A stretch of 39,127 bases of DNA from an uncultured Phycisphaerales bacterium. GTDB lineage: Bacteria > Planctomycetota > Phycisphaerae > Phycisphaerales > UBA1924. The translations under genes and the position numbers were made by a program. Positions 3,108-39,127 of this stretch are shown one piece after another. How positions within the stretch are numbered: the first letter of the stretch is position 1; each line of letters starts with the position of its first letter. Location of the stretch: positions 1-39,127 of the forward strand of contig CALLYM010000210.1 in assembly GCA_937858155.1 (NCBI GenBank), given 5' to 3'. The notes beneath the pieces are model-generated. The model saw only the letters and a program-made list of their open reading frames with translations. It made no database searches and was not told the origin of the DNA.

Positions 3108-5123
3108 TTACCACCACCCTCCGCGCGATCTGTTACGAACTTTCCAATAGTCGTCGCCCTTTTCCCGCTTGCCGACCGGTTTCCCGCTTGGCGTCCGCTG
3201 GTCCTCCGCCTGGCCGGGACCGAACCGGTGGTAGCGGGCCAGCTGATCGAGCCCGCACTCCAGCGACGCCACGGCCTCGCCATATACGCCCGCCATAGCC
3301 CAATCGTCCCTCCGAATCGCTTCCCACTGCTCTTTCCCCCGGTCCCAGCCGCCCTTTTCCTTCACGGGGACCAGGACGTTCGCCGTCAAGTGGTCCCTGA
3401 AGTCCTCGGGGACCCGCTCAACCAGGAACGTCACGCGGTCTTCGAGCAGCCGGCGCATCTGCCGGTCGACCCACACGTGCCGGTTCATGTCCCAAAGGTT
3501 GACCAGGCCCAGCCTCGGCCGCCCAGGGTCTCGGCGCTTGCGCTCGCTCGCGAGCACCGCGGCCTCTTCCTCCTTGACGTAGTCCTGAAATCGCATCGGG
3601 ATCAGCGGAATCCTCTTCCCGCTGTGCGCATTCACGATTGTCTGCCGGCAGAAGTCGAGCACCTGCTTTGTGAGGAAGGCGCAGTCGATGCCCACGCCCT
3701 TGGGCGTGAGCTCGCCAGCGCGGCGCTCGTCGCTGCCCTCCAGCGGCACCACCAAGTCCCGCAGATACACCGCGAGCGAATCCCACCCGGCCAGCGGGAC
3801 CAAGCCCACGGTGAACTCGTGGCCGTCCGTCGTCCACGCCTGTACCCGCGTCACGAGCGTCGGGTTGTGCTTGGGGTGCTGCACGTCGATACCCACGGTC
3901 AGCAGCCGGCACGAGCTCGGCGCGACCAGGCGGCTCACGACCTTCACCGCATCGTCGACCATCGTGACGGACACGGGCTCTGTTGAGCTTTGGTACGTCT
4001 CTCCCAGGACAATCGTGAAGAACCCGAAGCGGTCCTCCTCGGACTTGCACGACGAGAGCTGTCGCGCGAGGCCAACAATGCTGACGCGCGGGTCGATCGC
4101 GAGCCGGTGGAGCTTGCAGCCGATGAACTCGCGCTGCGCGGCCACTGACGGCGGGAGCGGCGACAGGAATCTGCCGGAGCCGCCGTTGTGCCCAGGCTCG
4201 CTCGGCGACCACATCGCCACCTGCCGTTCGCCGTCCGTAATCTCGCGGCCGCAGTCGGGGTGCGGGCACATGAACTTCGCCGTCTCGGGATCGGGGCGGC
4301 CGTCGCCGAGCGTGCCGGAGTAGTGCACGTGCTTCCACCGCGGCGCAACGGGGTGCTTGCAATGGGGGCAATCAAAGACCCACTCGGACTGGTCCGACAG
4401 GTCCATGAACAGCGCGTTCATGCCGAGCCCCGGACGGCGCGGGTGGCTCCATGCGAAGATGCGGCCGCGGCTCGGCGAGCTCGCGATACGGCCCTGAGCA
4501 ACCTGCCACGCGTTGCCGGTCAGGCCCGCGGGGAAGTTGTCCATGATCCGCTCGTACTCGTCGAGGAATACGAACGTGTAGGGGTAGCTGGTAAGGGGCC
4601 CGAGGCTGCCGGCACCGGCGAAGTCGATGCGGCCGCCCGGGAACACCAGGCGGCGCACGCGGCTCCGGCGCTCCATCTCGGCGACACGGAACAGCTGCAT
4701 GAGGCGCTCGTTGTGCCTGATGCCGCGCTGGAAGTCTTCGGCGAAGTCGCCGGCCTTGTCGCGGTCATCGATCAGGTAGAGGATGGGCGCGGGGTCCGTG
4801 TCCACCATGCTGCGCATCACGTTCGTGAACGCCGTCGTGATGCCGACCTGGCTGGACTTCTCGCAGAGGATGCCCCTCGCGCCGGGGCGGCTGAAGAGCA
4901 GGTCGTGGAAGTCGCGGAGGAAGGGGAGCCGGCTGCAGCGGTAGGGGCCCGGCCACTCGACGCTCATGTCGCTTGGAAGGTGCACGTTCTCTTCGACCCA
5001 CTCGCTGACGCGGACGCGGCGCCTGGGCTCATATACCTTCGCCACGGCCTCCCACACGCGCGCAGACGCAGGGGCCGCGCGGGGCCTGACTCGGCGCTGG
5101 TATGGGAGCGCGGCGGTTGTCAT
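3108..5123 (-). CDS. Phage terminase large subunit, GpA family
   Basis: 671 residues, typical of lambda GpA-type terminases, the ATP-driven motor and nuclease that cuts and packages phage DNA. Visible motifs: the deviant Walker A KSSQVGITT at residues 89-97, Walker B FVFLDEY at 184-190, a zinc-ribbon-like pair (CPHCKHP and CPHPDCGRE) near residues 245-290, and the nuclease-domain segments TVGIDVQHP near 405 and GVGIDCAF near 460. The ATG at 5123 overlaps the upstream methylase stop as ATGA. The protein ends SRGGWW just before the gpW-like gene. Presence with portal, gpW and S49 protease gives a lambda-like packaging module. Confidence 0.95.
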   Translation of the reverse strand: MTTAALPYQRRVRPRAAPASARVWEAVAKVYEPRRRVRVSEWVEENVHLPSDMSVEWPGPYRCSRLPFLRDFHDLLFSRPGARGILCEKSSQVGITTAFTNVMRSMVDTDPAPILYLIDDRDKAGDFAEDFQRGIRHNERLMQLFRVAEMERRSRVRRLVFPGGRIDFAGAGSLGPLTSYPYTFVFLDEYERIMDNFPAGLTGNAWQVAQGRIASSPSRGRIFAWSHPRRPGLGMNALFMDLSDQSEWVFDCPHCKHPVAPRWKHVHYSGTLGDGRPDPETAKFMCPHPDCGREITDGERQVAMWSPSEPGHNGGSGRFLSPLPPSVAAQREFIGCKLHRLAIDPRVSIVGLARQLSSCKSEEDRFGFFTIVLGETYQSSTEPVSVTMVDDAVKVVSRLVAPSSCRLLTVGIDVQHPKHNPTLVTRVQAWTTDGHEFTVGLVPLAGWDSLAVYLRDLVVPLEGSDERRAGELTPKGVGIDCAFLTKQVLDFCRQTIVNAHSGKRIPLIPMRFQDYVKEEEAAVLASERKRRDPGRPRLGLVNLWDMNRHVWVDRQMRRLLEDRVTFLVERVPEDFRDHLTANVLVPVKEKGGWDRGKEQWEAIRRDDWAMAGVYGEAVASLECGLDQLARYHRFGPGQAEDQRTPSGKPVGKREKGDDYWKVRNRSRGGWW

Positions 5124-6124
5124 GCGTCAAACAGCGACCTCGCCTCGTCGGGCACAACGCAGTGGGGGCTGAACCACAGCCGCTCGCGCCGCCGGTTTTC
5201 GTTCGACTCGCCCTGGTTGCCAAAGCCCCCCTGAGCGACCCACGACACGCACTGCCAGTTGTCCGGCATGGCGTGCTCGCCGTCGTAGCCGGCGAGACAG
5301 ATTCGCAGACGTGGGTTGGTGCCATTCTCAATCGCCCACGTCCGTGCGCGGAACGACACGCTTCCCGAGTCGTCGCGGTACATGCCCATCGTTCTGCCGG
5401 TGCTCTGCGCGTACGGCGGGTCGAGGAACACGGCCGCCACGTCGCCGCGCTCGAACGTGTAGCTCGGTGTACAGATTCGCGCGAAGTCACCGCAGCACAC
5501 GCGGACGTCGCGGAGCCTGGCCGCCAGGGCGTTGAACCACAACCGCATGCCCTCCCGCCTCTGGTCCATCTCGGCGCTGATTGCGGCGGCCGCGGCGACG
5601 TCGAGAGCGACGGGCCACGCGTTGGGCCGGAGCGCCCCCTGGTGCTGCGCGACGGGCTTCTTCACGAACCCCTTCTCGCCGCTGCCCGGACCATGCCACA
5701 CGCCGTGGCACCAACCGCTGCCGAACCAGCAGCAGATACCCCAGCACCACCACGCAGCCGTGCGGACGTCGTAAAAGTCCGGATCGTCGAGCATCCGCTG
5801 GCAGAACGCGGCCTTACGCGAGACCTCGACCAGCCACTTGTGCCGCGCAATAAGGTCGACCTCGTTCGCCGGCCAGTCGCACGCCGCGGCGACGGCGTCC
5901 GGGGCCGCCTGGACGGCGCGCCAGAAGTTGGCAACGAACGCGTCGATGTCGTTCACGGCCTCGAACCGCCGGCACCCCGGCGACCACGGCGCGGCGAGCA
6001 GCACCGCGCCCGTGCCGTAGAACGGCTCCGAGAACGCGTCGACCTCGCCAAACCGGGACCACACAGTCTCCGCGCACCGGCTCTTGCCCCCGAACCACAG
6101 ATACGGCGCCTCCAGGGGTGTCAC
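5120..6124 (-). CDS. DNA adenine methylase, D12 class, within the terminase module
   Basis: 334 residues. The D12/Dam-type N6-adenine methyltransferase motifs are clear: FGGKS at residues 11-15 (motif X), EPFYGTG at 33-39 (SAM-binding motif I), NDID at 58-61, and the catalytic DPPY at 235-238. The start is GTG at 6124, overlapping the stop of the small terminase as GTGA, with a near-perfect AGGAGGTG ribosome site. The stop overlaps the large terminase start as ATGA. The gene is therefore translationally coupled into the packaging operon. Phage adenine methylases usually protect DNA against host restriction; position between the terminase subunits suggests expression late, together with packaging. 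The target sequence cannot be told from the protein. Confidence 0.9.
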   Translation of the reverse strand: MTPLEAPYLWFGGKSRCAETVWSRFGEVDAFSEPFYGTGAVLLAAPWSPGCRRFEAVNDIDAFVANFWRAVQAAPDAVAAACDWPANEVDLIARHKWLVEVSRKAAFCQRMLDDPDFYDVRTAAWWCWGICCWFGSGWCHGVWHGPGSGEKGFVKKPVAQHQGALRPNAWPVALDVAAAAAISAEMDQRREGMRLWFNALAARLRDVRVCCGDFARICTPSYTFERGDVAAVFLDPPYAQSTGRTMGMYRDDSGSVSFRARTWAIENGTNPRLRICLAGYDGEHAMPDNWQCVSWVAQGGFGNQGESNENRRRERLWFSPHCVVPDEARSLFDA

Positions 6125-14422: not shown

Positions 14423-15196
14423 CTACACGACGCCCTGGAACGCCGCGAGCACGCGCTCGAGGCGGGAGAAGGCATCGGGATCTCCGGACTTCGCTTTGGT
14501 CACCAGGTCGGTGATCGCGGCCGCGGCCTTCTCGGCGGCGTGGTACAGCCCGTCGAGTCGCAGCTGGCCGGCGACGTCGCGCGACTGCGAACGCTGCTGG
14601 TTTGCGAAGGTGGGGGCGTCGGCCGCGCCGCGGGCAACCACACGGGGCGCAAGCGTCGGGACCCGCACAGACGCGCCACGATGCCCCACGTTGGGCGAAG
14701 GCGAGAAGGCGACGGCGGGACGGTTGAGGGCGATTGCGGGCCCAGCCTGGCCCCAGCCGGGGGCGGGGCCGATTCCCCGCCCCAGCGGCTTACCGCTTGG
14801 GGAGCCGCCATCCCCGCTCACGTGGGGTATACGTGTAGACGATGAGCTCGGCGCGCGAAGCACCCGCACGCCCGCTTGCACTTCGGCTTCATGGAGCGAC
14901 TTCGGCTCGGGCGCGCCGGGCGGGAGCGGGCTCGCGCTGAGCTTCGTCGCGAGAGCGATAGCTTTCTTCGCCACCGACATGTGCACGCCGGCCGCCTGCA
15001 GGCGCTCCTCCCATTCGCCGTGACGCACGTGGGGCCGTAGCGCAATGAGGAAGGTGCCCAGGGCCCTGCGTTCAGCCAGCAGCGCCCGCTTTGCTCCGCG
15101 GACGCGGTCGCTCAGCAGGCGCGCACGGTCCATCGCGTCGCTGAGCGTCGCGAATCCCTCCCCGGCAACGATGATGCGTGTATCGGTAGCGATCAT
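14423..15196 (-). CDS. DUF3102-like phage protein
   Basis: 257 residues from ATG 15196, overlapping the methylase stop as ATGA, with GAGGG upstream. Residues ~20-75 (RARLLSDRVRGAKRALLAER, GEWEERLQAAGVHMSVAKKA) look like the DUF3102 pattern, in which a helix pair is followed by a 'GxWxxxL' helix and an HTH-like segment. The centre, ~80-185, is Pro/Gly/Ser-rich and probably disordered. The C-terminal 60 residues are again helical (LYHAAEKAAAAITDLVTKAK). DUF3102 proteins are frequent in phages and integrative elements and are thought to bind DNA, but no function is established. Coupled translation with the methylase suggests related timing. Confidence 0.6.
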   Translation of the reverse strand: MIATDTRIIVAGEGFATLSDAMDRARLLSDRVRGAKRALLAERRALGTFLIALRPHVRHGEWEERLQAAGVHMSVAKKAIALATKLSASPLPPGAPEPKSLHEAEVQAGVRVLRAPSSSSTRIPHVSGDGGSPSGKPLGRGIGPAPGWGQAGPAIALNRPAVAFSPSPNVGHRGASVRVPTLAPRVVARGAADAPTFANQQRSQSRDVAGQLRLDGLYHAAEKAAAAITDLVTKAKSGDPDAFSRLERVLAAFQGVV

Positions 15197-16200
15197 GTGT
15201 CCCTCTTGTTGACCAGCAGGACCTCGGGCGCCTTGGCCGCCTCGCCGTCGCCGGCGTTGCGGCTGTTCTTCTGCACATCCAGGTCGACGACGTCCCACCA
15301 GGCGGACGGGTAGAGCTCGGCAAGCCGCTCGTGGCGGTAGTAGCTGATGCCGACCACAGCGCCCTCGCGCGCAATGCGGTGCGCCTGCTCAGCGAGCCAT
15401 GCGTGGAAGTCGTCCGCGGAGAAGAGCGAGCCGGTGCCGTCCTTGACCTTCTCCGCGTACCGCGCGCCCGGCGCGCCCAGGTACGGCGGGTCGAGGTACA
15501 CGATCTCGCCGGCAAACCCCTGAACGCTCGGCAGCCACTTCTCGCACCGCTCGCTGATCAGCGTCGTCTTGCCCAGCGCGAGCGACGCGTACCAGGCGGG
15601 AATGCTCGCCTTGACGTTCTCCCAGCGAAGACCGGGATCTCCGCCGCCAAGCGTGAAGCGACGCCCGATCGAGCCGACCAGGTCGTCCCACGCCGCGTCC
15701 GTGCCGGCAACCTCGCCGTTGCGTCCCATCCACCAGGCGATGAGGCAGTAGCCAGCGATGAGCACCTGCTGCTCATTCGTCATGGCCCCGAACAACGGCG
15801 CGCCCAGCCCTTCGCGCTCGACGTCGTCGCGGCGGTTGTGCTCCCATAGCCCGAGCTCGCGGCACGCCTGCGCGTGCGTCGCCTCCCCGAAGGGGAAGAG
15901 TGCCAGCTGCTTCACGAGCGATTCGGCCGTACGCGGGCTGGTGAGAACGACGGCCAGGTTGTGGATGTACCCGTACGCGTCGTTCGCGATCACCGTCCCG
16001 GCGAAGCCGCGGCCGCGGAGCTCCAGGACGTCGGGGAGCGAGCCGTGGAAGGGCGTGACGTACTGCTGCAGCACGCCGAGTCCGTCGCGGGCGCTCTTGC
16101 CAGACAGGCGCTCGAGCAGGATGTCGAGCAGCCGCGGAGCGAGCGTGCGTTTTCCTCCGTAGTACGGTGCGATAGATGACAGCGCTGCTTGCTCAGCCAT
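15193..16200 (-). CDS. Second DNA adenine methylase, D12 class, altered SAM motif
   Basis: 335 residues. Motif X is YYGGKRT at 13-19, an ANDAYG segment near 73-78 matches the post-motif I acidic region, and the catalytic motif is YLDPPYLG near residue 234. Motif I, normally FxGxG, reads TPFHGSLPDVL here, so the last Gly is replaced. It is not obviously a paralogue of the methylase at 5120-6124: motif spacing and the C-terminal regions differ. The ATG at 16200 overlaps the nucleotidyltransferase-like gene by 8 bases. It belongs to the early/middle transcription unit, whereas the other methylase is in the late unit. It probably protects phage DNA from restriction. Confidence 0.85.
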   Translation of the reverse strand: MAEQAALSSIAPYYGGKRTLAPRLLDILLERLSGKSARDGLGVLQQYVTPFHGSLPDVLELRGRGFAGTVIANDAYGYIHNLAVVLTSPRTAESLVKQLALFPFGEATHAQACRELGLWEHNRRDDVEREGLGAPLFGAMTNEQQVLIAGYCLIAWWMGRNGEVAGTDAAWDDLVGSIGRRFTLGGGDPGLRWENVKASIPAWYASLALGKTTLISERCEKWLPSVQGFAGEIVYLDPPYLGAPGARYAEKVKDGTGSLFSADDFHAWLAEQAHRIAREGAVVGISYYRHERLAELYPSAWWDVVDLDVQKNSRNAGDGEAAKAPEVLLVNKRDT

Positions 16201-19148: not shown

Positions 19149-19441
19149 TCGTCCTCCCTTCCGGTGAGGCGGACGCCGTCGCGAGCGCAGACGAGGTACG
19201 TGCCGACGCCGTGCCATCCACCCTGCTGATCAGCGACGCCGAGCTCGACAAGCCGCTCGACCGCGCGGAGCAGGTCGTCGGCGTTGGGCCTCGCCTTGCA
19301 CACCGCGACGAAGTCCGGGAGCTCGCTCATCTTGACGCGGAGCTCGTGGAGCGAGCACCACGGCTGGCCGCCGGTCTTCGCCGCCACGAGGAGCGCGAAG
19401 GCATGGTGAACGATTGCGTGGACCGCTTCTTCCTGAGTCAC
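19145..19441 (-). CDS. Hypothetical phage protein
   Basis: 98 residues from GTG 19441, overlapping the previous stop as GTGA, with GGAGG 6 bases upstream. Not recognised. Helical first half (EEAVHAIVHHAFALLVAAKT), then SLHELRVKMSELPDFVAVCK and DDLLRAVERLVELGVADQQG, which could be a small winged-helix arrangement ending in a beta pair (WHGVGTYLVCARDGVRL). A DNA-binding role is possible but not shown. Confidence 0.6.
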   Translation of the reverse strand: MTQEEAVHAIVHHAFALLVAAKTGGQPWCSLHELRVKMSELPDFVAVCKARPNADDLLRAVERLVELGVADQQGGWHGVGTYLVCARDGVRLTGREDE

Positions 19442-19890: not shown

Positions 19891-20516
19891 GCGTCCACCC
19901 CCGCTTCGCGAAGGGCTTCGGCGGCACCGCGGTTCTCGAACAAGGCCATGTTGCGGAGCGTGGCCTCGTAGTGCGCCGTCAAGTCCTGCAGAGCACCGAC
20001 CAGCTGAGCGCGGTGATACTCCGCTTCTGCAGGGCTGTATTGGTCCGCATTCTCGATCGAACGCAGGCAGTCCTGGTGGAAGCGGACACGCTCGCCGAGC
20101 CGCGCACCCTCCGGCGCCTTGGCCGGACAGGCGGCCGACATCGACCGCTGACAGCGGGATGAGCCCGCGGGACGGGCCACCATTCCGAGCGCGGGCCGCA
20201 TCGACGCCGGCACGGCCCACTGCTCTCGGCGCTGCATGCAGAGAGCGATGGCATGCCGAGTGACCGAGTAGCACCCGCCCGACAGGTCCGCCGCCGGCAT
20301 CGCCGCCTGACGCCACGGACCGGTGCGGTTGACGTAGATACCGGTGTGGCACACGGCCGCCTGGACCCGCTGGCCGTCGCTCCCAACGACGATGCGTCCA
20401 AGGCGCTGCGCCTTCATCGCGTCGCCGGCGGGCCACTCCTCGATCGTGGCGACCAGCACAGCCCCGGAACCGAAGTCGGGGAGGGATGATCCGGCAGGGC
20501 GGTTCTGCTCGTTCAT
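19887..20516 (-). CDS. Hypothetical phage protein
   Basis: 209 residues, ATG at 20516 overlapping the previous stop as ATGA, in a run of identically coupled genes. Not recognised. The N-terminal half is beta-rich (GSGAVLVATIEEW, GRIVVGSDGQRVQAAVCHTG); the C-terminal half is helical and charged (AEAEYHRAQLVGALQDLTAH). Several Cys and Met residues lie in the middle (CQRSMSAACPAKAP). No signal peptide. Confidence 0.6.
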   Translation of the reverse strand: MNEQNRPAGSSLPDFGSGAVLVATIEEWPAGDAMKAQRLGRIVVGSDGQRVQAAVCHTGIYVNRTGPWRQAAMPAADLSGGCYSVTRHAIALCMQRREQWAVPASMRPALGMVARPAGSSRCQRSMSAACPAKAPEGARLGERVRFHQDCLRSIENADQYSPAEAEYHRAQLVGALQDLTAHYEATLRNMALFENRGAAEALREAGVDA

Positions 20517-20821
20517 GGCAGCGCCCCCCCGTCTCGCTCCGCGTCCGTCAGCTTGCGGATGCTCCGGTAGTACGGCGCGCTCCCGCCGTCGACGCTCCGG
20601 CCCATGCCGAAAAACGCGTGGTACCAGTGGCCGCTGCGTGTCTTCACGAGCTCGATGCCGCGGTTCGGGCCGGAACGCACAATGCGCTCCTCAACCACCA
20701 CCGTGCGGGCCTTCGTCGCGGTCTCGTTGTCACCGATCCGCTCGATGACGACGTCGCCGTAGCCGTATCCCATTCCGTCCCGGTGGCTTCCTGCCCCGAA
20801 CAGCGCGTCCTTGCTACCCAT
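20513..20821 (-). CDS. Hypothetical phage protein
   Basis: 102 residues from ATG 20821, which follows the previous TGA after no gap (TGA-ATG), with AAAGGCGGTGG upstream. Not recognised. Beta-rich (VVIERIGDNETATKARTVVV, VKTRSGHWYHAFFGMGR), then a short charged helix. It ends ERDGGALP over the next ribosome site. Confidence 0.6.
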   Translation of the reverse strand: MGSKDALFGAGSHRDGMGYGYGDVVIERIGDNETATKARTVVVEERIVRSGPNRGIELVKTRSGHWYHAFFGMGRSVDGGSAPYYRSIRKLTDAERDGGALP

Positions 20822-21214
20822 TCAGCCACCGCCTTTCGGCTGCGGCCGCGTCGCGCCATTCGTGCGGTCGTAGTAGTCCGCGAACGCCTGCATGCCCCGC
20901 TGGAAGCCGTCGAGCATCGTGAGATTGCCGAGCTCGATGAACGCCTTCGCGATGGGATCGCTGCCGACCATGAACGCGCCGCACACGCCGTCACGGTCGA
21001 GGCGGTCGGCGACGTTGCAGCAGGTGGCGAGCACCATCGCCTTCGCGACGGCCTCCGCCCAGGTCTCACCATCGCATTGGGCGTAGACCTCCGGGCGGCC
21101 GGTGACCATCGAGACAACGTGGCAGTACTTTGGGCCGGCGTTCCGGACGTCGGCGAAGAACGTGAGCTCCGGCGGGGGCTGCAGGTAGTTGGTGGTGGGC
21201 GCGACCTGCGTCAA
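20822..21214 (-). CDS. Hypothetical phage protein, TTG start
   Basis: 130 residues. The start is TTG at 21214, overlapping the previous stop as TTGA with GGAAGGTGGTG upstream. The rare start is supported by the identical arrangement at neighbouring junctions. Not recognised. It contains several Cys (KYCHVVS, YAQCDGETW, LATCCNVADR, GVCGAFMV) and a helical C-terminus. It ends PKGGG. Confidence 0.6.
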   Translation of the reverse strand: MTQVAPTTNYLQPPPELTFFADVRNAGPKYCHVVSMVTGRPEVYAQCDGETWAEAVAKAMVLATCCNVADRLDRDGVCGAFMVGSDPIAKAFIELGNLTMLDGFQRGMQAFADYYDRTNGATRPQPKGGG

Positions 21215-21459
21215 TCGACACCACCTTCCTGCCCGTGATTGGCGAGCTCGGGGTTGGGTGCGATCGACTTCTCGTTTGCGTACACGATCAGGAAGTGGTT
21301 GTCGTTCTTGTCGCGAGACAACTCGACGGTGCGGTCGTGAGGAACGTGGGTCAGCCGCTCAGGCCGGCCCTGTTCATCGAACGACTCGACGCGGAACACC
21401 GCGGGCACGAACTTCTCGTTGCCGATCCAGAGATGGGAAGGCTTCTTTCCACTACCCAC
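21211..21459 (-). CDS. Hypothetical phage protein
   Basis: 82 residues from GTG 21459, which overlaps the previous TAG by 8 bases, with GGAAGG upstream. The frame is open further upstream inside the Cys-rich gene, but the spacing and the shared junction pattern favour this start. Beta-rich, basic and acidic alternating (FVPAVFRVESFDEQGRPERL, DRTVELSRDKNDNHFLIVYA). Possibly a small SH3-like fold. It ends QEGGVD. Confidence 0.55.
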   Translation of the reverse strand: MGSGKKPSHLWIGNEKFVPAVFRVESFDEQGRPERLTHVPHDRTVELSRDKNDNHFLIVYANEKSIAPNPELANHGQEGGVD

Positions 21460-21820
21460 GCCGCACCGCCTTCCGCACGCCCATCGACCGGGCCGCCTTG
21501 ACCAGGCGGGCGAACGGGCTCGACTTGCGCTTCGGGCAGCAGTTGTTGAGATGGACCCACAGCCCGGCCCAATATCCGAACATCGTGAACTTGTACCGAC
21601 CGAGGGCGTCGATCGCCTTCCGCTCCGCGGCGTCGCGTTCGCGCTCAAGGGCGGTCACCGAAGCGACCTCGCCACGGAGCGGCCGGCCGTTCTCGTCAAA
21701 GCAGCTGGAGCACTTGGTGTGGGCCTTGTCAACCCACCAGCAGCCCCACGAGCAGCCGCAACTATCGGTGCATCCGCAACCGCCGCAGACGCCGCGGCGA
21801 GGCTTCTTGGTGCTCCTCAT
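21452..21820 (-). CDS. Cys-rich phage protein with putative metal-binding N-terminus
   Basis: 122 residues from ATG 21820 (ATGA overlap with the previous stop, GGTGG upstream). The first 50 residues hold ten Cys in the pattern CGGCGCTDSCGCSWGC...CSSC, suggesting bound zinc or another metal. A helical, charged stretch follows (TALERERDAAERKAIDALGR), then a hydrophobic segment (FTMFGYWAGLWVHL) that might be a short membrane helix, then NNCCPK and a basic tail. Not a family I recognise. Confidence 0.6.
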   Translation of the reverse strand: MRSTKKPRRGVCGGCGCTDSCGCSWGCWWVDKAHTKCSSCFDENGRPLRGEVASVTALERERDAAERKAIDALGRYKFTMFGYWAGLWVHLNNCCPKRKSSPFARLVKAARSMGVRKAVRRG

Positions 21821-22086
21821 GAGCCACCACCCTTCACTCGCGTCCAACGAGGGATGAACACGGCGATGCTCGTGACTTCGCCGGGCCCAATCCAGCGGTG
21901 CGGGTTGGCCCGCTCGATGCGACCGCTGAGGATGCGAATCGGCACCGTTTCAGCGCCACACGGCGTGGTCGCTGTCGGCTGGTCGGCAGCCACGATCTCG
22001 ACGCGGACGACGCCATAGTCGGGTCGCACCGGGAAAGTCAGGTCGTAAACCTCGCCCACCTGCGGGTGGAAGTCGCGGCCCATCAT
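21817..22086 (-). CDS. Hypothetical phage protein
   Basis: 89 residues from ATG 22086 (a second ATG follows at 22083), overlapping the previous stop as ATGA with GGAAGGCGGTG upstream. Beta-rich (GEVYDLTFPVRPDYGVVRVE, ETVPIRILSGRIERA, VTSIAVFIPRW). Not recognised. It ends VKGGGS, encoding the next ribosome site. Confidence 0.6.
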   Translation of the reverse strand: MMGRDFHPQVGEVYDLTFPVRPDYGVVRVEIVAADQPTATTPCGAETVPIRILSGRIERANPHRWIGPGEVTSIAVFIPRWTRVKGGGS

Positions 22087-22820
22087 GCGGCACCGCCTTC
22101 CGCGACCTTGGCGCACTCGCGCTCATACCGAGCCTGCGCCTCGTGCTCGACCTGGGCGATGACGTGGTTTGTCACGTACCCGGTGTTGCGCTTCACCTCT
22201 TCGTGGTCTTCGTCCTGCGCCGCGTTGTCCCACCGCTCGCCGGCGTCGGCTGCGCACGCGAGCTCCATGTCGGCGAAGTGCTCGTGCAGCGATGCCCGCT
22301 CGGCGTGCGTCGCGTCGTGCAGCAGCTTCATGTAACGGGCGCGGCGTTCGATCCTCAGCCCATCGGGCCCGCCGAACACACGCATCTTGAGCCAAGCGAC
22401 GCAGTCGTCGACGGACGACGCCAGCACATCCGCTAGCTTCACCATCAGGTCGGGCTCAGTAGGTTCGAGCGCGAGCACGCAGGTTGGCTTGTTCTGCCCC
22501 GTGAACCACCCAAGCTCAAGATGGGCGCTGCGGCCGCAAGGGAGTAGCAGGACGCAGACGTCGGCCCACTTCATCGCGTCGAAGTCAGAAGCAAAGCCGT
22601 CGACGGCCGGGGGCATCGCGAGCATCGCCTGCCATTGGTGCGGCGTGACATGCTCGCCCATCTTCCAATCCGGGTCGCAGTCCGACCAGGAGAACCCACC
22701 GCGGCCGTGCGGCGGGTTGCGGAAGTCATAGACGTCGAAGCCCTCGGCACGGAGCCGCTCGACGACGCCGGGCTGGTGGGGATTGCGCCACGAGGACGCG
22801 AGGTAGATGCGCAGGCTCAT
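22083..22820 (-). CDS. Nucleoside 2-deoxyribosyltransferase-like phage protein
   Basis: 245 residues from ATG 22820 (ATGA overlap, GAAAGGCGGTG upstream). Residues ~1-135 match the nucleoside 2-deoxyribosyltransferase-like fold: RIYLASSWRN at the start, EGFDVYDFRNP, a long FSWSDCDPDW loop, then DFDAMKWADVCVLLLPCGRS and AHLELGWFTGQNKP, the last containing the Glu expected as nucleophile. The C-terminal ~110 residues are helical, charged and not part of that fold (RRARYMKLLHDATHAERASL). The family moves deoxyribose between bases or cleaves nucleotides; phage members may recycle or modify nucleotides. Substrate not predictable. Confidence 0.75.
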   Translation of the reverse strand: MSLRIYLASSWRNPHQPGVVERLRAEGFDVYDFRNPPHGRGGFSWSDCDPDWKMGEHVTPHQWQAMLAMPPAVDGFASDFDAMKWADVCVLLLPCGRSAHLELGWFTGQNKPTCVLALEPTEPDLMVKLADVLASSVDDCVAWLKMRVFGGPDGLRIERRARYMKLLHDATHAERASLHEHFADMELACAADAGERWDNAAQDEDHEEVKRNTGYVTNHVIAQVEHEAQARYERECAKVAEGGAA

Positions 22821-23047
22821 GCCGCACCGCCTTTCCCATCCAGGTGCAAGCTGAGCACGCGGCTGAGAGACATCCAGCACTTGCGGCCGGAATGGTCGTT
22901 CTCGATCGCTGCCTTCCAACACGGGCCGCTTCGTTTGGTAACCTGCTTCCGCGCAACAAGCCTTCCCGTGCTGTAACCCGTGAAGCCGTCGCGTTTGTAT
23001 TGAACGATGGAGCCGATCGGGATTGCGATGCGCTCTTCGTGCGTCAT
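22817..23047 (-). CDS. Hypothetical phage protein
   Basis: 76 residues from ATG 23047 (ATGA overlap, AAGGGCGGTG upstream). Beta-rich and basic (AIPIGSIVQYKRDGFTGYST, GRLVARKQVTKRSGPCW), possibly a small barrel. It ends DGKGGAA, the clearest case of the C-terminus-encoded ribosome site. Confidence 0.6.
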   Translation of the reverse strand: MTHEERIAIPIGSIVQYKRDGFTGYSTGRLVARKQVTKRSGPCWKAAIENDHSGRKCWMSLSRVLSLHLDGKGGAA

Positions 23048-23730
23048 GCCGCACCGCCCTTCGTTCCCTCACCGGGGACGTGAACGAAGGTCGAGTCACG
23101 GTTCTTGACGACAACCTCGCCCGGCGCGATTAAGTGCCCCAAGCCGCACCGCGCAGCGAGGGTCGGGTTGTGCTTCAGGTTCTCCAGGTCTTGGGCGTCG
23201 AGGATGTCGTGGATCTCGCCCCAGACCTTCAGCAGCCGTGCGCTGTCGGCAGCAATGTGCTCCGCGTGATACCGGCGGACCAGCAGGAGGCTCGGGTGCG
23301 GCCGGCGCTTTTCCGCCCGGTCGATGATGTCGTGCAGGTGGTGCCGGACCTCGTCGAGGTACCCGTCCGCCCGCTTGAGCGAATCGCTGCAGGCGCGGCG
23401 GTTCCCCAACGCCCCCATCTCGATCGCCCATATGACGTACAGCTGAGCGAAGTGCAGGGCGACGATCGCTCCCACCCGGTGCTCGTACCCGGGCGTCCCG
23501 GGGAACACGGCCTGGAAGTAGGCCGCCTTGTCGGCGTCGGGCACGTTCGAGAAGCCCGACGTCAGGTCGAGCAGCTTGTCCCCCGTGACGCGGCCGGACA
23601 GCCGGTAGACCTGACCGGCCCAGCCGGCGAGCGCCTCCGCCCCCTCAACAAGTGCCCTCGTGAAGTCATCCTGCGGCCTGGTCGCCGCCCGATCCGGAAC
23701 CGCCCCCGCGGCCCCCTGCTGAATCCCCAT
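23044..23730 (-). CDS. Hypothetical protein, first phage gene at the phage/host boundary
   Basis: 228 residues from ATG 23730, with GGGAGG 6 bases upstream. Not recognised. Largely helical: TRALVEGAEALAGWAGQVYR, EHRVGAIVALHFAQLYVIWA, DEVRHHLHDIIDRAEKRRPH. The first ~20 residues are low complexity. The first 65 bases overlap, in another frame, the end of the methyltransferase reading frame. It ends TKGGAA and couples to the next gene like the other phage genes, which places it in the phage operon. No promoter is visible upstream, so either the operon is truncated here or it is read through from the methyltransferase. Confidence 0.6.
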   Translation of the reverse strand: MGIQQGAAGAVPDRAATRPQDDFTRALVEGAEALAGWAGQVYRLSGRVTGDKLLDLTSGFSNVPDADKAAYFQAVFPGTPGYEHRVGAIVALHFAQLYVIWAIEMGALGNRRACSDSLKRADGYLDEVRHHLHDIIDRAEKRRPHPSLLLVRRYHAEHIAADSARLLKVWGEIHDILDAQDLENLKHNPTLAARCGLGHLIAPGEVVVKNRDSTFVHVPGEGTKGGAA

Positions 23731-24724
23731 AACCGGCCTCCCGGAGTAACCGGGAAAGGCTGTCCAGCAGGTCCGCAGCGGCTATCATCAGGCCATTCGG
23801 GTTTCCGGGACTTTCAGTCCGGGTGTGCCCATTCTTTTCTGCAACCAGGTACACCACCTGCGACGCGCAGTGCTCTGCTTTTCCACGCGTCGGCGAAAAG
23901 ACCCCGTTCCCCCCGCCGCGCTTGTCGTCGCCCTCCTGGTAGAGCGTGGTCTTCTTGAACCCCGCGAGCTTCAGCAACTCGAACAACTCCGCCAGCGACC
24001 ACAGCCGCCAGTGGTACACAAACGCGTTCCGGAGCGCCGGCCCCTTCTGGAATTCAAAGTGAATCTTGCACACGATGCGGTTCGTGAACGGGTCAAACTC
24101 GGCCTGGTCCCACACATAGGTGAAGTGGGAGCCCTTGGCGTACACGCGGCGTCGTTCGGTCAGTAGCTTGTCCGCGTCCCACCCCGCATACGCGTCCATG
24201 AACAGCACGCCGTCCCGCTTCATGGTTCGGTGCACAATCTTGAAGTAGTTGAGCAGCGACTCGCGGGTGTCGAAGACCCAGTACGAGAAGTTCATCGCCG
24301 CGACCGCGTCCACCCCGCTGGCCTCCCTGCCCGGCGTCATCACGTTGCGCAGCAGCAGGCTGATCCGCCCCTGCTGATCTTCGTTCATCGCTCCCACGTT
24401 GTGCCTTCGCCCCCACTCCAGCACCGGCTTGTCGATGTCCAGGGCGACCGCCCGGTTCCCGCGGTGTCGCTTTACAAACTCGCACGCCGCCGCCGCCGAC
24501 GCCGCGAAGTCTTCCCTCAAGAACCGCAGGTCGCGCCCCGTCAGTTTCTTGAACTCGCGGGTCACGAAGTCGATCTCGTGCTCCACCCCCTGCACCGCCA
24601 GCTCGTACATCTTGCGCTTGTCGATATCGCCGCGCCGGACCACTTTCGCGGGCCGGGCCCGCTTTGCCGGTCCTTTGCGGGCTTTGCCCCTCGGTCGAGT
24701 CGTCCGGACGCGTCGTTTCGCCAT
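23666..24724 (-). CDS. SAM-dependent methyltransferase with C-terminus fused into phage DNA
   Basis: 352 residues. The N-terminal 30 are very basic (MAKRRVRTTRPRGKARKGPA). The core is a class I methyltransferase: EFVKRHRGNRAVALDIDKPV, DAVAAMNFSYWVFDTRESLL, KRDGVLFMDAYAGWDA, then HWRLWSLAELFELLKLAGFK and an ending QVVYLVAEK like that of related planctomycete proteins. After that (from 23833) come 55 extra residues, ending in Gly/Ser-rich GGRGGGSGSGGDQAAG, that do not look like the family and lie in or next to phage sequence. The likely native stop has thus been lost through insertion, deletion or misassembly. Substrate unknown. It is divergent from ugd. Confidence 0.75.
   Translation of the reverse strand: MAKRRVRTTRPRGKARKGPAKRARPAKVVRRGDIDKRKMYELAVQGVEHEIDFVTREFKKLTGRDLRFLREDFAASAAAACEFVKRHRGNRAVALDIDKPVLEWGRRHNVGAMNEDQQGRISLLLRNVMTPGREASGVDAVAAMNFSYWVFDTRESLLNYFKIVHRTMKRDGVLFMDAYAGWDADKLLTERRRVYAKGSHFTYVWDQAEFDPFTNRIVCKIHFEFQKGPALRNAFVYHWRLWSLAELFELLKLAGFKKTTLYQEGDDKRGGGNGVFSPTRGKAEHCASQVVYLVAEKNGHTRTESPGNPNGLMIAAADLLDSLSRLLREAGYGDSAGGRGGGSGSGGDQAAG
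23805..23823. repeat. Imperfect inverted repeat at the phage/host boundary
   Basis: CCGGGACT-TTC-AGTCCGGG, five central pairs plus outer pairs with one mismatch. It lies just beyond the conserved end of the methyltransferase, inside the fused tail. It could be a terminator remnant or part of an attachment site. No second copy is found at the left end because that end is outside the window. Confidence 0.35.
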
Positions 24725-37200: not shown

Positions 37201-37549
37201 GCCGATCCCCGCCGCACACGAGACCCTCTCCAACGCCCAGCTGGACCTGGTCGCCCTGGTGTTCGTGTTCATGCTCTCGACCTTCATCGGCCTAGGCGTG
37301 ATCCGGCGCGTCTCGCGACTGCTCCACACGCCCCTCATGTCGCTCACCAACGCGATTTCCGCGATCGCCGTCGTGGGCGCGGTGCTCGTCGCGGGCGGGT
37401 CGCACGAGTACCCCACGTACATCCGCGTCATGGGCGCGGTGGCGCTGTTCGCGTCCATGACCAACATCGTCTCGGGCTTCATGATCACCGACCGCATGCT
37501 CAAGATGTTCAAGAGCGACGCGCCGGGCAAGCAAGGGGGGCACGGATGA
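37190..37549 (+). CDS. pntA2: NAD(P) transhydrogenase subunit alpha part 2 (membrane)
   Basis: 119 residues, overlapping pntA by 11 bases. Three or four membrane helices: LDLVALVFVFMLSTFIGLGV, SAIAVVGAVLVAG, ALFASMTNIVSGFMI. The segment VSRLLHTPLMSLTNAISAIA (HTPLMSxTNAIS) is diagnostic for this subunit. Together with PntB it forms the proton channel. The stop overlaps the pntB start as ATGA (37546-37549). Confidence 0.94.
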   Translation: MPAEPIPAAHETLSNAQLDLVALVFVFMLSTFIGLGVIRRVSRLLHTPLMSLTNAISAIAVVGAVLVAGGSHEYPTYIRVMGAVALFASMTNIVSGFMITDRMLKMFKSDAPGKQGGHG

Positions 37550-38373
37550 CCACCCTGTGCGCCCCGCTCCTCATGCTGGCGCAGGCGACGGAGAACGTCG
37601 CCGCGTCCCACCCTGCGCCCGTCCCCAACGGGCCGCTGCAGGTCGTCGTCGAACTCGCCTACCTCCTCGGCGCAGGCCTGTTCATCCTTTCACTGCACTG
37701 GATGGGCGACCCGAAGTCCGCCCGGCGCGGCGTCTACGCGGGCGTCTTCGGCATGGCGATCGCCGTCCTCGCGACATGGGCAAAGCCCGATGTCACGCGC
37801 CACTGGTGGGTGCTCGTGCCCATCGCGCTCGCCGTGGGGCCCGGTGTCTGGCTCAGCCACGTCCCCCTCACCGCCGTGCCGCAACGCACGGCGCTGTCGC
37901 ACGCCTTTGGTGGCCTGGCGGCTGGGTTGGTGGGCACGGCGAAGTTCTTGTACTGGTTCCACCATGACCCAGGGGAGCTGACGCGCTTCCGCATGGGCGC
38001 CATCGTCTTTGAAGTCCTGCTCGGATTCCTGACATTTACCGGTTCCCTCATCGCCGCAGCGAAACTCCAGGAAGTCAAGTGGCTGCCGCAGCGCCCATGG
38101 GTGTACAAGGGCCAGCACTTCGTGAACCTTGTCGCGTTCGGTGCCGCCGTCGTGCTGGGACTCGCGCTCATCATCAATCCCTCGTACCAGCACTCCCCCT
38201 GGGTGTTCGCGGCCTTAGTCTTCCTCGCGTTCAACTTCGGCTGGATGCTCGTCATGCCCATCGGCGGCGCCGACATGCCCACCGTCATCGCCATCCTCAA
38301 CGCCTACGCGGGCCTCGCCGCCGTCGCCATGGGCTTTGTCCTCGACAACAAACTGCTCATCACCGCCGGCGCG
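37546..38373 (+). CDS. pntB: NAD(P) transhydrogenase subunit beta, N-terminal 276 residues, truncated by a join
   Basis: Starts at ATG 37546, ATGA overlap with pntA2. The membrane domain is clear: LQVVVELAYLLGAGLFILSL, HWMGDPKSARRG, TALSHAFGGLAAGLVGTAKF, FTGSLIAAAKLQEVKWLPQR, FGWMLVMPIGGADMPTVIAI, LNAYAGLAAVAMGFVLDNKL, LITAGA. In full-length PntB the last segment is followed by about LDGASGFIL and then the NADP-binding domain. Here PntB similarity stops after GCG at 38373, and an unrelated hydrolase sequence follows in the same frame. So about 190 C-terminal residues are missing. Confidence 0.92.
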
Positions 38374-38748
38374 CGCGATCAGCGGCCGGTGCAGCAGACC
38401 GACGGGTACGGGCTCATCTACCTCGGGGCCGAGCTGCCCGCTGCGCTCACCCTGGCCGGGTCGGCCACCGCGACGGTGCAGCTGTCCTCGGACTGCCCCG
38501 ACACCGACGTCGTGGTGAAGCTCGTCGAACGCCGCGCCGACGGCGCCGCCATCCTGCTCATGGACGGCGTGCAGCGCGCCATGTTGCGCGACGGTGGCGC
38601 CACGCCGGTCCCGCTGCAGCCGGGCCGGCCCGTGACCGTGGTGGTGGCCTTGGGCGAGCTGCACCACACCTTCGCCGCCGGCAGCCGGATCGAGGTGGAC
38701 ATCACCAGCAGCAACTTCCCCCGCCGGGCGCGCAACACCAACAGCGGC
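38374..38748 (+). CDS. CocE/NonD-type hydrolase, C-terminal domain fragment, fused in frame
   Basis: 125 codons in the same frame as pntB: RDQRPVQQTDGYGLIYLGAE, TLAGSATATVQLSSDCPDTD, VVVKLVERRADGAAILLMDG, then a beta-rich stretch and SRIEVDITSSNFPRRARNTN. This is the C-terminal jelly-roll of X-Pro dipeptidyl-peptidase-like / CocE/NonD acyl hydrolases, where DQRP, SDxxDTDxxVKL, HxFxxGHRIRVxxxSSxFPRxxRNxN are usual. Neither the N-terminal alpha/beta-hydrolase part nor a natural start is present, and the end of the domain is cut. It does not belong to PntB; a chimeric join is the likely explanation. Confidence 0.85.
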
Positions 38749-39127
38749 CACCTGCTGCTGGCCGCTGACGATTTTGGCAACTTCAGCGGGAAGAACTTCA
38801 CCATCCGCGCGCGCTGTTTTCCTGGCGAAGCGATCCTTCCGGAGCGGATGGACAAGTGGTTGGGCGAGCTTGTCGATCAAGACCTGGTGCGGTTCTACGA
38901 AGTCGATGATGAGCGTTACGTTCACATCCCGCGCTTTCGTCAACGTCTTCGTTCAATGCGCCCGAAATTCCCACTTTCGCCCTGGACGTCAATTGAGGAA
39001 AAACAATATCTTAACGAGAAGGATGTCAGACATGAACCTGACATAGGTCAGACGCATGACAGGTCCATGCGTGAGAAGAGAAGAGAAGAGAAGAGAAGAG
39101 AAGAGGGGAAAACAGGCGCTATTCGCG
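38749..39127 (+). CDS. Phage/plasmid replication protein, N-terminal fragment, fused in frame, open at window end
   Basis: Continues in the same frame: HLLLAADDFGNFSGKN, FTIRARCFPGEAILPERMDK, WLGELVDQDLVRFYEVDDER, YVHIPRFRQRLRSMRPKFP, then a polar linker and REEKRREEKRREE. This is the winged-helix-like start of phage replisome-organiser/replication proteins, which usually read xxLLLxADDFGxF near residue 30-45, so the first ~30 residues are missing. The DNA is visibly more AT-rich from about 38,880 on than anything else in the window. The hydrolase-to-replication transition lies between 38,746 and 38,770. Confidence 0.8.
39073..39102 (+). repeat. (GAGAA)6 tandem pentamer
   Basis: Six perfect GAGAA copies, then GAGG. 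In the open frame they encode the alternating KRREE pattern. Similar Arg/Glu runs after the N-terminal domain are common in phage replication proteins, so the repeat is probably native to that gene rather than an artefact. It could also have ended an assembly. Confidence 0.7.

Follow-up and report, generated by a model that had tools for sequence, protein, structure and literature searches.

Seven near-identical gene junctions in a Phycisphaerales prophage as candidate ribosome sites written into upstream gene ends

Why should eight small phage genes be joined, seven times in succession, by almost the same sequence, and why should most of the otherwise unrelated proteins upstream of these joints end alike? 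The question is raised by a prophage of an uncultured Phycisphaerales bacterium, contained in a 39,127-nucleotide (nt) stretch of DNA (contig CALLYM010000210.1, positions 1 to 39,127; hereafter the window) from a metagenome-assembled genome of 3.8 Mb (GCA_937858155.1). The run in question consists of eight small genes, mostly without an assignable family, lying on the minus strand from 23730 down to 20513. A first-pass annotation of this DNA had proposed that the linker between these genes is a ribosome site whose translation supplies the shared C-termini, that coding and translation signals had converged or been copied, and that such borders could serve as points for swapping genes. The run is best explained, in our view, by strong Shine-Dalgarno (SD) sites that are written into the ends of upstream genes and give translational coupling, a reading to which we assign a probability of roughly 0.87.

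The seven junctions

The pattern [AG]A[AG]GG[CT]GGTG is found at all seven consecutive minus-strand junctions between 20822 and 23044, lying 4 nt before the start codon at six of them and 5 nt before it at one. Direct examination of each junction therefore bears out the claim that seven successive genes are joined by nearly one sequence. The genes and sites are as follows, with energies referring to pairing with the 3′ end of 16S RNA.

Gene 1, 23044..23730, minus strand: 228 amino acids, no family; its tail, ...EGTKGGAA, holds the SD of gene 2
SD element 1, AAGGGCGGTG, 23052..23061, minus strand: 4 nt before ATG 23047; ATGA overlap; -14.7 kcal/mol
Gene 2, 22817..23047, minus strand: 76 amino acids, no family; tail KGGAA
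SD element 2, AAAGGCGGTG, 22825..22834, minus strand: 4 nt before ATG 22820; ATGA overlap; -15.6 kcal/mol
Gene 3, 22083..22820, minus strand: nucleoside deoxyribosyltransferase-like over residues 4-142 (phrog_12607), the sole family among the eight genes; tail EGGAA
SD element 3, GAAGGCGGTG, 22091..22100, minus strand: 4 nt before ATG 22086; ATGA overlap; -16.2 kcal/mol
Gene 4, 21817..22086, minus strand: 89 amino acids, no family; tail KGGGS
SD element 4, AAGGGTGGTG, 21825..21834, minus strand: 4 nt before ATG 21820; ATGA overlap; -16.0 kcal/mol
Gene 5, 21452..21820, minus strand: 122 amino acids, Cys-rich N-terminus, no family; tail KAVRRG, with the site in another frame
SD element 5, GAAGGCGGTG, 21464..21473, minus strand: 4 nt before GTG 21459; 8-nt overlap GTGGGTAG; -14.5 kcal/mol
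Gene 6, 21211..21459, minus strand: 82 amino acids, no family; tail EGGVD
SD element 6, GAAGGTGGTG, 21219..21228, minus strand: 4 nt before TTG 21214; TTGA overlap; -17.0 kcal/mol
Gene 7, 20822..21214, minus strand: 130 amino acids, no family; tail KGGG
SD element 7, AAAGGCGGTG, 20827..20836, minus strand: 5 nt before ATG 20821; TGA followed directly by ATG; -17.0 kcal/mol
Gene 8, 20513..20821, minus strand: 102 amino acids, no family; the last gene started from this type of site

What is common to all seven junctions is the 10-nt site together with its distance to the start. Between site and start, genes 2, 3 and 4 have CGGC-ATGA (at 23047), CGGC-ATGA (22820) and CCGC-ATGA (22086), and genes 5 to 8 have GCTC-ATGA (21820), CGGC-GTGGGTAG (21459), TCGA-TTGA (21214) and GCTGA-ATG (20821). 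The middle base of the site, given in the first-pass annotation as C, T or G, is C in five cases and T in two and is never G. Likewise, the description of stop and start as fused is accurate for the four ATGA junctions and the single TTGA junction, but not for the remaining two, where there is an 8-nt overlap and an abutting TGA/ATG pair. Nonetheless, every pair overlaps or touches as is expected of coupled genes, with overlaps of 4, 4, 4, 4, 8 and 4 nt and then one directly abutting pair. The tails, in order, are KGGAA, KGGAA, EGGAA, KGGGS, KAVRRG, EGGVD and KGGG, such that a shared C-terminus exists in the sense of six x-Gly-Gly tails; the fifth does not belong to it. Because the fifth site keeps the same DNA in another reading frame, it is the DNA that is conserved here and not the peptide. 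In addition, the tail of gene 8 itself (...GGALP) holds another SD.

Evidence for a ribosome site

The 16S 3′ end is GGATCACCTCCTTTCT in three genomes of the same genus, and the tail used in the pairing calculations was taken from these. Set against it, a comparison that the first-pass annotation had suggested, the seven sites pair strongly: their energies of -14.5 to -17.0 kcal/mol place them among the strongest 1.3% of random 20-mers from the operon. Other junctions of the prophage pair less strongly (median -12.3, p = 0.02), as do selected overlaps of the host (median -10.5, p = 0.004). Across the seven junctions, conservation is restricted to columns -15 to +4 relative to the start; beyond these the columns resemble random draws, and the few scattered ones that pass the 5% or 1% line are no more than so many columns would yield.

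It is informative to consider the site as codons. The second glycine codon is GGT in all six sites that lie in register, although GGT accounts for 10.6% and GGC for 58.9% of the 611 glycine codons of the prophage; the calculated chance of six out of six at this rate is near 1e-6. The first glycine codon is unbiased, with four GGC and two GGT, in line with usage. Given that the bias toward GGT is found in the second glycine codon only, the positions pairing with 16S are fixed, and the single unpaired position goes with codon usage. As the third position of the first glycine codon, the middle base obeys ordinary glycine usage and is thus C or T and not A; likewise, the element lies one base off AAGGAGGTG because the odd base occupies the wobble position in this register. 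The codon bias, the site in another frame and the limit at -15 and +4 together uphold the view that the C-termini are a translated ribosome site in which coding and translation signals have converged.

It is also worth asking whether G-rich composition would place such sites in any GC-rich operon by chance. The GC content of the prophage is indeed high, at 67%, and 74 of 150 related genomes have single AGGNGGTGNNGCATGA sites. However, AAGGNGGTGNNGCATGA with up to three mismatches has 13 matches in the window against 3.6 expected, a number that none of 100 shuffles reached, and the reversed pattern is more than 100 times rarer in viral contigs. Furthermore, GGYGGTG at this spacing is present at 7/7 junctions of the run, whereas the prophage has it at 0/11 of its other overlap junctions (Fisher p = 3e-5) and a selection of 4-nt overlaps from about 745 kb of host contigs has it at 0/29 (p = 1e-7). 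These p-values are optimistic in that the run was picked after being seen. The remaining operon junctions are ordinary and varied, with GGAGGTG at 19438 and 6121. These controls refute the chance explanation, which retains a vanishingly small probability.

We propose that each site acts as the SD of the next gene, set within the last codons of the preceding one. AAGG and GGTG, flanking one unpaired base, would pair with the 16S tail 5′-GGAUCACCUCCUUUCU-3′. A ribosome ending the upstream gene would come to a halt at the next start or a few nucleotides from it, where SD pairing would hold it at the stop until it begins anew at the start codon that overlaps or adjoins this stop (termination-reinitiation), with the effect that the small genes would be produced in step. 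The ATGA overlap and the fixed distance would also set the frame of the site: because the distance to the overlap fixes its reading frame, the site reads Lys/Glu-Gly-Gly-x-x, and the similar protein tails would be a by-product. Judged from the sequence, coupled translation of these genes is probable, and the likeness of the sites probably arose through selection and not through copying. A translation signal can in this manner dictate the ends of unrelated proteins; therefore, C-termini shared among small phage proteins should not be taken as homology or as a peptide motif.

Several observations weigh against this reading. The 16S gene is missing from the genome's own assembly, and at similar sites in 150 related genomes A is the most frequent middle base (37 of 105 tallied, chance matches included). 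Moreover, the uniformity of the run (7/7 versus 0/11) exceeds what a general preference for SD sites alone predicts, which leaves room for an added effect of local history or of some special requirement of these genes: the eight may all need coupling that is strong and equal, or some of the run may descend from a common source since trimmed to its functional core.

The same junction elsewhere, copying and exchange

The same junction is used by many unrelated phages. At least 120 viral stretches of IMG/VR contain the exact 18-mer AARGGCGGTGCGGCATGA, with its KGGAA-stop and ATGA, versus one with the reversed pattern. Among the matches listed, 113 of 122 lie where one open frame, ending in KGGAA, meets another, across many gene pairs that are unrelated to each other. 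When the middle base is left open, 104 junctions of unrelated phages have C in 67, A in 16, T in 12 and G in 9, near the glycine codon usage of the same contigs (GGC 0.47, GGA 0.17), and this base shows no linkage with the spacer base (p = 1.0). An earlier tally of 22 C to 7 A was discarded, the contigs having been selected with a C-containing pattern. A prophage fragment in the same host family (L055:1412-2338) has four successive junctions of the form GNGGTG-NNNN-ATGAGC with other middle bases (GGAGGTGCGGC, GGGGTGGGGC, GAGGTGGGGC and GGAGGTGGAAC, each ahead of ATGAGC). The literature searched contained no mention of a KGGAA tail in such a role.

Two protein families, collected by protein similarity irrespective of the junction (L243-L256 and L257-L336), allow the behavior of the tail to be followed; members within each are related and their counts are not independent events, though the association is complete. 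In the first, the KGGAA-stop/ATGA end is kept in 14/14 homologues, which are followed by any of five kinds of downstream gene; for members that differ in this neighbour, identity averages 0.85 ahead of the site, 0.96 inside it and 0.29 directly after ATGA. In the second, a family of 80 small zinc-finger proteins, the tail marks 66/66 members whose stop overlaps the next start and 0/14 without overlap, the latter lying in three other gene contexts; the last residue of the tail is V in 30, A in 27 and L in 9, and the second glycine codon is GGT in 63/66. Because the tail occurs in zinc-finger homologues only with an overlap, it accompanies a coupled downstream gene. These two families of other phages, in which the neighbour changes at a sharp boundary, fit the suggestion that such borders are swap points, although any causal part of the short identity in the exchange is conjectural. 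With its exact sequence in so many viral stretches, the junction provides a simple marker for coupled pairs and for sites of neighbour change, and it makes the boundary-sequence idea countable, since collections can be scored for whether the tail goes with the downstream gene or remains with the upstream one.

Could the likeness of the junctions nonetheless record shared ancestry? Paralogy as the cause of the similar ends was rejected, there being no blastp similarity among the eight genes. Genes 1, 2, 4, 5, 6, 7 and 8 have no tblastn match in 50,697 phage records; gene 1 and the primase have no homologue in viral contigs, where the portal has distant relatives only. Gene 3 has distant phage homologues at 25.9-55.5% identity (in phages of Mycobacterium, Rhizobium, Paracoccus and others), and the junction before the homologue differs in the three records examined (RR1-B, Amochick and Nilo). 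A more specific proposal is that the small genes were gained as cassettes through recombination at short identical borders, the run being the record of these gains. Its appeal lies in the unusual uniformity of the run, in a CGGC spacer that is identical at three of seven junctions, one of them in another frame, and in the sharp boundary just described, with five different followers and a fall in identity from 0.96 to 0.29 past ATGA; in addition, none of the small genes is present in relatives with homologous primase, terminase or portal. A short conserved sequence does stand at successive gene borders in the run, as in the boundary sequences that have been proposed for lambdoid phages (according to a passage in PMC3029335). 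However, no DNA is shared outside the functional site, either as flanking DNA common to the junctions or as the similarity beyond translational need that a recombination substrate would have, since conservation goes no further than -15 and +4. Other phages show no linkage of the middle base with the spacer base, 10-15 nt of homology is short for homologous recombination, and breakpoints would fall at gene borders anyway through selection against broken genes. Among the prophage proteins that were searched, most of them without a family, none was recognised as a recombinase. With no common flanking DNA and no linkage, the idea that the sequence was copied finds no support, and we regard it as distinctly unlikely.

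Alternatively, the tail peptide itself might be under selection, for example as a C-terminus recognised by a protease or as a binding motif. KGGAA does recur at protein ends in many phages, and an Ala-Ala end is reminiscent of degradation tags. Nevertheless, only three of the seven tails end in AA while one is KAVRRG and another EGGVD, and the variable last residue of the zinc-finger tails and the lack of a tail in all 14 homologues without an overlapping downstream gene are difficult to reconcile with a peptide function, which also would not predict a bias at a synonymous site (GGT); this explanation is very improbable. Somewhat different, and rather doubtful, is the notion that AARGGCGGTGCNGC-ATGA, together with the KGGAA tail, serves phage genes widely as a portable start site, repeatedly arising in or being carried between unrelated phages, whose short identity would aid the exchange of ready-to-translate cassettes; the present run would then be a dense array of such joints.

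Genome setting and comparison with known systems

The prophage operon occupies the minus strand over about 1-24.7 kb of the window and includes portal, large terminase and primase genes and two D12-type methylase-like genes; from 24.8 kb onward the genes are ordinary chromosomal ones (UDP-glucose dehydrogenase, ABC transporter, GcvT, MnmE). By primase, the nearest phage relatives are in metagenome-assembled genomes of Phycisphaerae, two of them from the same family. The label "early" that the first-pass annotation gave to the small genes is a guess from position. If gene 1 begins at its first ATG (23730), a methyltransferase-like gene (23666-24724) overlaps it by 65 nt (23666-23730), and the true start of gene 1 may lie later. 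Gene 3 (22083-22820) has about 100 extra residues after its deoxyribosyltransferase domain that are not found in its phage homologues, and its residues 68-223 have a weak match to a frame of L237, a further genome from the family. The two D12 methylase-like genes of this one prophage lie at 5120-6124 and 15193-16200, and profiles match only N-terminal residues 10-82 of one and C-terminal residues 233-333 of the other. At the contig end, a PNTB transhydrogenase beta part (residues 36-276) shares one open frame (37546-39126) with a PepX_C domain (285-418); such a fusion is unusual and could be an artefact of assembly or binning.

For E. coli and H. volcanii, strict coupling has been measured in 13 of 14 overlapping gene pairs, the SD contributing to a degree that varies by gene, and planctomycetes are among the groups that use SD motifs at overlaps to an intermediate extent (PMC6728339); across prokaryotes, 4-nt overlaps are the most common arrangement (PMC10666635). 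The junctions described here resemble termination-reinitiation at such overlaps (PMC6728339, PMC10666635) in their ATGA or adjacent stop and start and in an SD that lies in the end of the upstream gene. They differ in that seven successive junctions have nearly one sequence and one distance, with coupling here being a prediction. In lambda (NC_001416), successive small accessory genes likewise have short overlaps, of 4 nt at 7 of the 10 junctions examined, with several SDs in upstream tails; unlike those of this run, however, the lambda junctions are heterogeneous (for example AAAGGAGCAAGTGT-ATGA and GGGAGGGAAGCTGC-ATGA), and none has GGNGGTG at this spacing. The boundary sequences of lambdoid phages (Clark et al. 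2001; Susskind and Botstein 1978), as presented where PMC3029335 cites them, are comparable in being short conserved sequences at gene borders, and in two families of other phages the neighbour does change at the junction; the conserved part here, in contrast, is the ribosome site. The mechanism is one that is already known, of which this prophage provides an unusually uniform run.

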